Shown here: one piece after another, positions 20,678 through 23,780 of the stretch
Layout: every line of letters starts with the position of its first letter
Position numbering within the stretch: the stretch's first letter is position 1
Assembly (NCBI GenBank): GCA_026710945.1
Contig: JAPOQA010000039.1
Span: forward strand, 1 to 64,000
Source of the DNA: Chloroflexota bacterium
Lineage (GTDB): Bacteria > Chloroflexota > UBA11872 > VXOZ01
Reading direction: 5' to 3'
Length of the DNA stretch: 64,000 nucleotides
Program-made: the position numbers and the translations under genes
The notes under the pieces: model-generated
The model's input: the letters and a program-made list of their open reading frames with translations, nothing else
Databases searched by the model: none
What the model was told of the DNA's origin: nothing

Positions 20678-20736
20678 AGCGGCCCACGAGGCGCGGTCCT
20701 CTCTAGTCCTCTTCATCAAGTGTCTGGGAGTTCCTT

Positions 20737-20810
20737 CGGGGTGTGGCGCAGCCTGGTAGCGCGCATGGTTTGGGTCCATGAGGCCCCCGGTTCAAATCCG
20801 GGCACCCCGA
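20737..20810 (+). tRNA. tRNA-Pro (anticodon TGG)
   Basis: A full cloverleaf can be folded. The acceptor stem is CGGGGTG/CACCCCG with discriminator A at 20810. The D arm contains AGCCTGGTAGC. The anticodon stem CATGG/CCATG surrounds the loop TTTGGGT, giving anticodon TGG. The T arm CCCGG-TTCAAAT-CCGGG is standard. The 3' CCA is not encoded (bases after the discriminator are CCT). The DUF503 gene follows 72 bases downstream. Confidence 0.97.
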
Positions 20811-20882
20811 CCTTCGTCATCTATAATCGATATTCCAATTTACTTCCCGCACGCGAGTGCCGTGGGGACTCTGCTCTTCCGC

Positions 20883-21176
20883 ATGATTATTGGCGCCTGT
20901 CAACTCACCTTTCAGCTCTACGCGAGCGACTCCCTCAAGGAGAAACGCCGTGTCGTACGGTCCATTGTCGACCGCACTCGGGCGCGCTTTAACGTGGCCG
21001 TTGCCGAAGTCGCGGATCAGGACGTTTGGGGATCGTGTGTAATCGGCATAACCTGCGTGAGCACCGATACGCGCCATGCGAACTCTATAATTGACAAAGT
21101 GACGAATCACATATTGGGCTTGGCGCTGGAGATGGACATCATCGACCGCGAAATCGAGTTCATACCCTTTTCCTAG
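20883..21176 (+). CDS. DUF503 family protein (YlxP-like)
   Basis: A 97-residue protein starting MIIGACQLTFQLYASDSLKEKRRVVRSIVDRTRARFNVAVAEV, the hallmark opening of DUF503, a small ferredoxin-fold family often encoded beside rbfA/nusA/infB and of uncertain role. The conserved DxW (DQDVWGSCVIGI) and C-terminal IDREIEFIPF segments are present. I start at ATG 20883; the frame open further upstream runs through the tRNA and is not coding. Here it is away from the usual translation-factor cluster. Confidence 0.85.
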   Translation: MIIGACQLTFQLYASDSLKEKRRVVRSIVDRTRARFNVAVAEVADQDVWGSCVIGITCVSTDTRHANSIIDKVTNHILGLALEMDIIDREIEFIPFS

Positions 21177-21431
21177 AGGCGACTGCAGAGTGTCGTCTAA
21201 TCCGGACTCTATCGTCATACTAAATCGGCTTGGCGGGAGCACGGGACTTGAGGGACTAAAGACTGCCCCTTGCACGGACATGGCCGTGCACTCTAGGAAG
21301 AATGGATGGATTCCCGAGTACGTGGGATCGACTGAAATGGCTACAGCACTTCGCAGGGCGTGTCGCAACGCCATTTAACGCGATGCCGACTTTGACCGGT
21401 TTGCGGTCGACACATTTTAGAGCAGGAGAAA

Positions 21432-22175
21432 ATTGCTTCGCGCTGTCTCATCATTGCGGACGTTCACGCAAACCTGGAGTCGCTCAACGCCGTGATTGCG
21501 GCGGCGATGCCGTTCGATCGGATTTGGTGTTTGGGCGACCTGGTCGGCTATGGCCCGAACCCAAATGAGTGCGTCGAAATTGTCCGCAGCTTTGACCACG
21601 CGGTCGTGGCCGGAAATCACGATTGGGTGGCCAGTTGCAAACAGTCCGCTGCGGGCTTCAACCCTCAAGCTGCGATAGCGGCGCGATGGACGGCAACTCA
21701 GCTAAGCGCGGGTGCGCGGCAATTCCTGTTGGACTTGCCCGAGTCTGCGATGGAGGGAGACTTCCTCCTCGTCCACGGCAGTCCCCGCGCACCTACCGTA
21801 GAGTATCTCTTTCGCGCGGAAGAGGCCCAGAGGAGTTTCCCACACTTTACTGCAACCTACTGCTTGGTGGGCCATACCCATGTGCCGTGCGCCTTCATTG
21901 CGGCCGGCCAATCTTCGTCGCCTGATGTCATCAGAATAGAGTTGAAGCATGACGAACCGCTGCCCCTAGACGGCTGGACGCGGATGATCGTAAATCCGGG
22001 AAGCGTCGGTCAACCCCGTGACTACAATCCCCACGCCGCATTCATGGTCTATGATTCCATCAGACGCGAATTGCAGATGCAGCGCGTGCCCTATGACGTG
22101 GCAGTAACCCAGCAGAAAATGCGCATCGCCAACTTGCCGGTGCCATTGATAGAGCGACTGGAGTTTGGGATATAA
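21432..22175 (+). CDS. Calcineurin-like metallophosphoesterase with non-canonical start
   Basis: Metallophosphoesterase of the YfcE/ApaH-like superfamily. Metal-binding motifs in order are D-x-H in CLIIADVHANLESL, GDLVGYGPNPNECV, GNHD in VAGNHDWV, LLVHGSP, and GHTH in LVGHTHVP. The first motif lies upstream of the first conventional start (GTG 21492). The frame is closed by a TGA at 21393, with no ATG, GTG or TTG between. The best start I can see is ATT at 21432, three bases after AGGAG at 21424-21428. So either a rare AUU start is used or the 5' end carries a frameshift or sequence error. The substrate is unknown. Confidence 0.75.
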   Translation: MASRCLIIADVHANLESLNAVIAAAMPFDRIWCLGDLVGYGPNPNECVEIVRSFDHAVVAGNHDWVASCKQSAAGFNPQAAIAARWTATQLSAGARQFLLDLPESAMEGDFLLVHGSPRAPTVEYLFRAEEAQRSFPHFTATYCLVGHTHVPCAFIAAGQSSSPDVIRIELKHDEPLPLDGWTRMIVNPGSVGQPRDYNPHAAFMVYDSIRRELQMQRVPYDVAVTQQKMRIANLPVPLIERLEFGI

Positions 22176-22193
22176 GGGAATTGAGCGGCGGGT

Positions 22194-23780
22194 CTAATTC
22201 TTGCGGAGCACCTTGCCGGGCAATGTGCCGGTGTGCTCACCGTTGTCCACCACCACAACGCCGTTTACCATCACCAGGTCTATGCCGCTCGGGTACTGGT
22301 GCGGGTCGCCAAATGTAGCATTCTCAGTCACGGAATCAGGATCGAAGAGCACGAGGTCCGCATCCAGGCCGCTGTGAACAAATCCCCTGTCCGCGAGTCC
22401 CAACTTCTCCGCCGGCGCGCCCGACATCTTGCGGACAGCTTGTTCCAGCGTAAGCACGTTGCGCTCGCGCACATAGACTTGGAGAACCCGCGGAAAGGTG
22501 CCGTAATTGCGGGGGTGCGGCACGCCCTGACTGAGGGGGCCATACGGGGCGAGGCTCGAGCCATCCGAGCCAACCATGCCGAGGGGATGGGCGAGCATAT
22601 ATTCCACGTCGTCTTCGCTCATCGAGAATGCCAACATAGAGGCTTTGTTCCGGCTCTCCATGATGAGATGGAACGCGGCGTCCAGCGGATGTAGCTTGAG
22701 GCTCTGTCCAATGGCGGCGAAGTCCTGCCCCTCGTATTGCTTGAAGGCCTCAGTATCAATCCAAACCAGGTAGAAGCTATCCCATTCGCGACCATCCGCG
22801 TCGGCCTCTGCGCGTAACTGGGCATAGGTGTTCGGATCGTTGAGGCGGGCCAGCATTGCTCCGGTGCCGCCTTCTTTCGCCCAATTGGGCACTACCTGGT
22901 CCAACCCGCCGCTACCGGCTGTGTAGGGATAGACGTCGTAGTTGACGTTTACGTTGCGGTCTTGGGCGCGCTCGCTCTGCAGGGTTGCATCGCGCACTTT
23001 GCCCCAGTTGTTCCTGCCGGTAGCTTTGTGGTGGGCGATTTCTACAGACACATCGGCGCGTTCGCCAATCTCGATGGCTTCCGCTACGGCGCGCAGCAAC
23101 GTATCGCCTTCGCCGCGAATGTGGCTGAAATACAATGCGCCATATTCATGCGCGACGTTGGCGAGGCTCACGAGCTCTTCCGTGTCTGAATACGAGCTGG
23201 GTGGGTAGATGAGGCCGCTGGACATGCCGAAGGCGCCGTCGTCCAGCGATTCGCGCAGAAGCTGCTGCTGTTGCGCGATCTCTCCAGGCTCGGCAGGACG
23301 GCGATCCATACCCATTGCCGCCATGCGCAGAGGCGTGTGACCGACGAGGGGCACGACGTTCAGGGCGACACTGTTCTTCTCAATGGTGTCCAGGTATTCG
23401 CCAAAGCGCAGCCAGTCCCAGCCAAGCTCAGCGCTGCCCTTGGCGAGAAACGTGCTGGTTTCACGAATCTCATCTCTGGTATCAGGGGTGAGCGGCGCCG
23501 GGCCCAACCCACAATTGCCAATGACCTCAGTCGTCACGCCCTGTCTCACCTTGCTCTCCGCGCGGGGATTGACGAGCAAGGGCAGATCCGAATGGGTGTG
23601 GATGTCAATGAAACCCGGGGCTAGAACCTTCCCTGCTCCACAGACTTTCCGTTGGGCTTCTACGTGCGCCAGCGCACCGATTGCCGCTATTTTGCCGTCC
23701 TGGACGGCCACATCCGCCACGAAGCCGCGTCCGCCGCTGCCGTCAACGACCGTGCAACCTTCAAAGACTACGTCGTACAT
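22194..23780 (-). CDS. N-acyl-D-amino-acid deacylase family amidohydrolase
   Basis: A metal-dependent amidohydrolase of 528 residues similar to D-aminoacylase, which hydrolyses N-acyl-D-amino acids. The metal motif is FIDIHTHSDLPLL, followed by GVTTEVIGNCGLGPAPL, typical of this group. Further blocks are FGMSSGLIYPPSSYSDTEELV, a His pair in YFSHIRGEGD and VEIAHHKATGRNNWG, and MVGSDGSSLAPYG. Start at ATG 23780 (MYDVVFEGCTVVDG) is preceded by AGAGGAG. An upstream in-frame codon at 23801 is less likely. It is third in a minus-strand run with the PLP enzyme and RDD protein, perhaps for D-amino acid use. Confidence 0.88.
   Translation of the reverse strand: MYDVVFEGCTVVDGSGGRGFVADVAVQDGKIAAIGALAHVEAQRKVCGAGKVLAPGFIDIHTHSDLPLLVNPRAESKVRQGVTTEVIGNCGLGPAPLTPDTRDEIRETSTFLAKGSAELGWDWLRFGEYLDTIEKNSVALNVVPLVGHTPLRMAAMGMDRRPAEPGEIAQQQQLLRESLDDGAFGMSSGLIYPPSSYSDTEELVSLANVAHEYGALYFSHIRGEGDTLLRAVAEAIEIGERADVSVEIAHHKATGRNNWGKVRDATLQSERAQDRNVNVNYDVYPYTAGSGGLDQVVPNWAKEGGTGAMLARLNDPNTYAQLRAEADADGREWDSFYLVWIDTEAFKQYEGQDFAAIGQSLKLHPLDAAFHLIMESRNKASMLAFSMSEDDVEYMLAHPLGMVGSDGSSLAPYGPLSQGVPHPRNYGTFPRVLQVYVRERNVLTLEQAVRKMSGAPAEKLGLADRGFVHSGLDADLVLFDPDSVTENATFGDPHQYPSGIDLVMVNGVVVVDNGEHTGTLPGKVLRKN

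Follow-up and report, generated by a model that had tools for sequence, protein, structure and literature searches.

The question raised by this locus is where translation begins in a phosphoesterase gene that has no ordinary start codon ahead of its first metal motif. The gene lies in the window, the whole stretch of 64,000 nucleotides of Chloroflexota DNA that was analysed. Its open frame spans 21396-22175 (259 codons; TAA at 22173-22175), and after the TGA that bounds it at the 5′ side, the first in-frame ATG, GTG or TTG is GTG at 21492. If this GTG were the start, the Asp-x-His motif would be lost. The preliminary description had noted that no ordinary start lies between the TGA and this GTG, past the motif; this was confirmed in the sequence, and the homologous position likewise lacks one in all five relatives. 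The gene and its surroundings consist of the following features.

20883..21176, plus strand: DUF503 gene, the upstream neighbour in all six species of the genus (profile and leader comparison)
21393..21395, plus strand: in-frame TGA, upstream end of the phosphoesterase frame (sequence)
21438..22175, plus strand: metallophosphoesterase coding sequence counted from the proposed start, 245 codons and TAA, with the motifs DxH, GDxVGYG, GNHD, VHGSP and GHTHVP
21459..21467, plus strand: Asp-x-His metal motif, GAC GTT CAC (sequence)

The gene is an intact metallophosphoesterase. Its profile scores exceed the Pfam gathering thresholds for both Metallophos_2 (PF12850; E = 1.1e-16, 61.6 bits against 27) and Metallophos (PF00149; E = 1.2e-12, 49.1 bits against 21.5), which places it among the calcineurin-like metallophosphoesterases. 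The metal motifs of this family are DxH, GD, GNHD, H and GHTH, and they were found by eye in the six-species alignment, in which the G005 copy is partial. The protein also matched 3rqz_A (E = 8.3e-60) over residues 2-245, in an alignment that begins one codon past the TCG triplet described below; 3rqz is a metallophosphoesterase with the same motifs, known as a solved structure by its entry name. Within 20737-21176 of the window, a tRNA-Pro(TGG) stands immediately 5′ of the DUF503 gene, and this tRNA was the only Rfam match in 20700-22300. Beside the other phosphoesterase orthologues that were fetched, DUF503 gave no match at E 1e-4.

The 5′ ends were compared among six species genomes of the family, all of one genus and including that of the window. 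The gene is present in all six, with identities to the window of 70% (G004), 70% (G001), 69% (G003), 59% (G002) and 73% (G005, where the copy is incomplete and runs off the contig). At the homologous place ATG, GTG and TTG are absent in every one of them, so that the comparison of ortholog 5′ ends advised in the preliminary description found the ordinary start missing there in all six species. Such absence at a conserved N-terminus across species is the mark of conserved non-canonical starts of the infC and ccpN kind. The alignment delimits the following elements.

21424..21428, plus strand: Shine-Dalgarno sequence AGGAG, invariant in 6/6 species
21429..21437, plus strand: 9-nt spacer with no invariant column, holding ATT (21432-21434) and GCT (21435-21437)
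21438..21440, plus strand: TCG, the proposed UCG start codon, invariant in 6/6 species, at the position homologous to NTG in 96/96 loci outside the genus

In G001, G002, G003 and G005 an in-frame TAG lies 5-6 codons before TCG with no ordinary start between, and the in-frame ATGs of G002 are all 5′ of its TAG; the TGA of the window lies 15 codons before TCG. G004 is the exception, with its in-frame TAG 19 codons before TCG and an ATG and a TTG, 13 and 12 codons before TCG, that are open to the gene. No GGAG-like site was found by eye before this ATG. From the nearest in-frame stop to the motif, ordinary starts are therefore lacking in four of the five relatives, all but G004. For codons 2-18, which lie 5′ of the first GTG, pairwise dN was 0-0.14 and dS 0.28-1.38, compared with 0.07-0.32 and 0.49-2.53 for the whole gene; because dN is far below dS, this stretch is translated. 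A sequencing or assembly error, or a pseudogene, would account for the missing start, the sole point in its favour, but its probability is negligible. Six separate genomes agree, which refutes the sequence error considered in the preliminary description, and with dN far below dS, the frame is intact to the stop codon in five copies (that of G005 is off the contig).

Among the six species the leaders between DUF503 and the phosphoesterase range from about 78 to 385 nt and differ in sequence; 3′ of TCG, the genes align as those of a conserved protein. The Shine-Dalgarno sequence is strong, conserved and at a usable spacing (AGGAG-N9 in 6/6), which supports the earlier suggestion of a non-ordinary start behind a good Shine-Dalgarno sequence. 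A repeat-like intergenic sequence, GGATTCCCG...CGTGGGA, was seen at 21308-21327 of the window, and the G004 and G001 leaders contain similar stretches. Because the pattern was drawn from these very sites, its single match in the window is no independent test.

As a reference for spacing, we used 104 genes of the genus with an inferred ordinary start and a Shine-Dalgarno sequence, of which 23 had equal AGGAG spacing in both compared species. The spacing was 4 nt in 1 of these, 6 nt in 3, 7 nt in 5, 8 nt in 4, 9 nt in 3, 10 nt in 4, and 11, 12 and 13 nt in 1 each, so that 6-10 nt was found in 19/23; 3 nt was found in 0/23, though the method permitted it. Conserved non-canonical starts of the infC and ccpN kind are AUU, AUA, AUC or CUG, and no such codon was found at the homologous position, which is TCG, with AUN not conserved. 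The preliminary description had proposed the AUU at 21432, but the aligned codon is GCT, GCT, ACA, CCA and ATA in the five relatives and its 3-nt gap has no counterpart in the 23 genes; the triplet conserved at the start position is TCG at 21438-21440 instead. Since the interval from AGGAG to TCG includes an in-frame ATT or ATA in four of the six species, individual species might use AUN starts of their own (AUU in the window, AUA in G005, AUU in G004 and G002), or G004 its upstream ATG, and TCG would then be merely a conserved early codon. We consider this improbable, because G001 and G003 have no AUN codon in this interval and those of the window and G005 stand 3 nt from AGGAG. An ATC four codons after TCG (ATC in 5/6 species, GTC in G002) was also rejected, by inference, as it lies 21 nt from AGGAG and a start there would cut the first strand.

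Codon usage at TCG was compared with that at other invariant residues. TCG makes up 19.6% of the Ser codons in the sampled genes. Among 14 invariant Ser, Leu and Arg sites, one codon is kept in all six species at two, TCG and one nearby Leu codon, and 16 of all 85 invariant residues keep a single codon across the six species. The invariance of TCG is thus suggestive of a start codon in this alignment and falls short of proof. TCG may alternatively have been kept as the second codon of an upstream start, or by chance, the nearby Leu codon being equally invariant.

To place this position beyond the genus, 103 loci were collected, comprising the best locus from 82 of 91 genomes with a match and 20 further loci; nine genomes were left out (G018, G049, G054, G065, G070, G073, G078, G080 and G088). 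Seven codons ahead of the Asp of DxH, 65 loci have ATG, 17 GTG, 10 CTG, 5 TTG and 6 TCG, where L082 and L146 are the same gene (CTG) counted twice. Without the duplicate, NTG occupies the position in 96/96 loci outside the genus (ATG 65, GTG 17, CTG 9, TTG 5), some of which may be paralogues or near-copies, and TCG in 6/6 loci of the genus. TTG, one transition away, is found at the TCG position in 0/6 species of the genus.

This comparison bears on the codon before TCG, which is GCT in the window, ATT in G004 and G002, GCC in G001 and GTT in G003 and G005. Spacing does not separate TCG (9 nt) from this codon (6 nt), and conservation does. A start one codon before TCG (GCU at 21435-21437 in the window), yielding fMet-Ser-Arg, would have an equally usual spacing (6 nt in 3/23 genes) and would be AUU in two of the six species (G004 and G002), AUU being a known weak start codon according to the available text of PMC13009471. 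Such a start is nevertheless unlikely, since no base of the codon is constant among the six species and two of them have GCU or GCC, and since in 96/96 loci outside the genus NTG stands one codon 3′ of it.

A tree was built from 98 proteins of the 103 loci, without L146 (the duplicate) and L008, L051, L138 and L141 (partial or poorly matched). The TCG rows form one group (5 rows, G005 omitted as partial) with support of 100/99, and four changes are needed to explain CTG. Within the class, ATG is absent from the start position in families f1, f3 and f4 (TCG 6, CTG 9, GTG 11, TTG 2; n = 28) and present in 10/10 loci of f2 and f5; outside the class it is found in 55/64, and in the sample from the window's own genome 68 of 104 inferred starts are ATG. 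Because f1, f3 and f4 are without ATG, weak starts are usual for this phosphoesterase in part of the class, and TCG is the extreme case. The class orthologues that start with CTG (L021-L025 and L027 of genus g3, L026, L088 and L082) have a weak start at the same place, although against the initiator anticodon CTG is mismatched at one base and TCG at two. All six g3 loci have CTG at this position, and in five of them a stop closes the frame 5 codons before it; in L088 a TTG also lies in frame, 6 codons 5′ of the CTG.

Alternatively, ribosomes could start further upstream, either in another frame followed by programmed frameshifting or with readthrough of the in-frame stop. Four species (window, G004, G001, G003) have an ordinary start 5′ of TCG in an open +1 frame and three (window, G002, G005) in an open +2 frame; in G002, an ATG also lies in frame three codons 5′ of the TAG. 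However, the +1 frame meets a stop at -5 (G005) or -23 (G002) without a start, the +2 frame has no start in G004, G001 and G003, and neither frame offers such a start in all six, which also weighs against the 5′-end frameshift named in the preliminary description. Neither the length nor the sequence of the leader is conserved, and five codons before TCG three species have TAG where the remaining three have CAG. This alternation fits an untranslated leader around AGGAG and argues against readthrough. We regard this whole route as quite improbable. Editing of the mRNA from C to U would restore an ordinary start, as UCG is one transition from UUG, and in plastids start codons are edited from ACG to AUG. 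Among the matches listed, no title or abstract opening describes natural C-to-U mRNA editing in bacteria, and we consider editing here very improbable indeed.

The infC gene, another weak-start gene, was used as a control. Four of the six genomes yielded it (L182, L180, L181 and L179, in G000, G001, G003 and G004), and in G002 and G005 it was not found. In all four its conserved candidate start is ATA behind AGGAG-N9, which bears out the parallel with infC drawn in the preliminary description; in the infC of G004, a TTG additionally lies in frame two codons 5′ of the ATA. AUA is the infC start in Staphylococcus aureus, as stated in the available text of PMC13009471. The comparison therefore recovers an expected weak start, at the same spacing as TCG.

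To see how common such starts are, 447,544 bases of the window's own genome were paired with 400,000 bases of G001. The 768 reciprocal ORF pairs were reduced to 227 by removing overlaps, and to 209 by dropping 18 with non-coding evolution or too few differences. Conserved sequence before the first ordinary start was detected by the automatic test in 11/209 pairs, of which 8 were judged by eye to be leader similarity ahead of a proper start. The 3/209 left without an ordinary start before a conserved N-terminus are the phosphoesterase, infC and a gene that we take to be a formate dehydrogenase of the selenocysteine type. Odd starts are therefore rare in the sampled part of the genus, and a general relaxation of starts was not seen in the 209 pairs. 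The formate dehydrogenase-like gene (G000 contig C14, minus strand, L183-L191; G001:C2) has an in-frame TGA in both genomes, SCNRT-TGA-HAPSVVGLATVFG, likely at a selenocysteine place, and its upstream frame runs on through the TGA.

Special factors for UCG were sought as well. All 50 tRNA matches of the genome were read by ARAGORN, and an initiator with another anticodon was not found among them. Three have the anticodon CAU. In one of these the acceptor stem ends in a mismatch like that of an initiator, by which we presume it to be the initiator; UCG is read via CGA by a single tRNA, a long-arm one for Ser. The initiator of families f1 and f2 (L250, L241-L252) has an A-U pair instead of G-C in the anticodon stem, a pattern found in 30/41 genomes of the class and in 5/6 of the genus. 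This pair does not explain TCG, because f2 has it too, yet the f2 orthologues start with ATG. RNA structure at the start was rejected on six single folds (z from -0.52 to 2.35), and a scan of viral contigs gave one pattern match and no relatives.

On balance, we think it rather likely that translation of the phosphoesterase starts at UCG (21438-21440) with fMet-tRNA, at a low and probably IF3-sensitive yield. AGGAG, 9 nt upstream, would hold the 30S subunit so that UCG lies in the P-site, and the ordinary initiator tRNA, with anticodon CAU, would pair mainly via the third codon base, and fMet would be delivered only slowly. As with infC, the yield would then be small and probably IF3-sensitive. 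UCG mismatches CAU at two of three bases, and according to the available text of PMC10158994, pairs other than Watson-Crick at the first two codon bases are not tolerated by IF3. This strictness speaks against efficient use of UCG; it implies a very low expected rate and predicts strong sensitivity to IF3.

Known systems share part of this arrangement. infC (AUU/AUA), pcnB (AUU) and cvfC1 (AUU) and ccpN (AUA) of S. aureus likewise combine a good Shine-Dalgarno sequence with a weak start kept by evolution, and in the available text of PMC13009471 the AUU and AUA starts of S. aureus give about 10% of the AUG reporter output in poor medium, and ccpN up to 30% in rich medium. Unlike UCG, which departs from AUG at bases 1 and 2, starts of the infC kind differ from it at the third base only. 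We know of no self-regulation of a phosphoesterase. Hecht reportedly measured all 64 codons in E. coli in 2017. No bacterial UCG start was found in the titles and abstract openings of the matches listed from one library of open papers; judged by title, the papers found there on UCG or TCG start codons are all on insect mitogenomes, in which TCG is named as the start codon of cox1, the role proposed for it here. Insect mitochondrial cox1 is translated by the mitochondrial ribosome, without a Shine-Dalgarno sequence.

The most likely start of the phosphoesterase is thus the serine codon UCG, which as a start turned up, among the matches listed, for animal mitochondria alone. We lean, by a little, towards the view that a UCG start with two broken pairs has been kept since the ancestor of the six species, though one transition would give UUG, with the choice of site resting almost wholly on the Shine-Dalgarno sequence and spacing. 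A gene finder that admits only NTG would place the start of this enzyme beyond its metal motif, or overlook the gene. Translation would apparently be able to begin far from AUG, with evolution preserving such a start. If this is true, UCG at this locus would be a natural, conserved two-mismatch codon that serves as a regular start, starts of this kind would be discoverable by comparing 5′ ends between species, and the gene would provide a natural case for testing to what extent the start codon is set by IF3 discrimination and by Shine-Dalgarno spacing.
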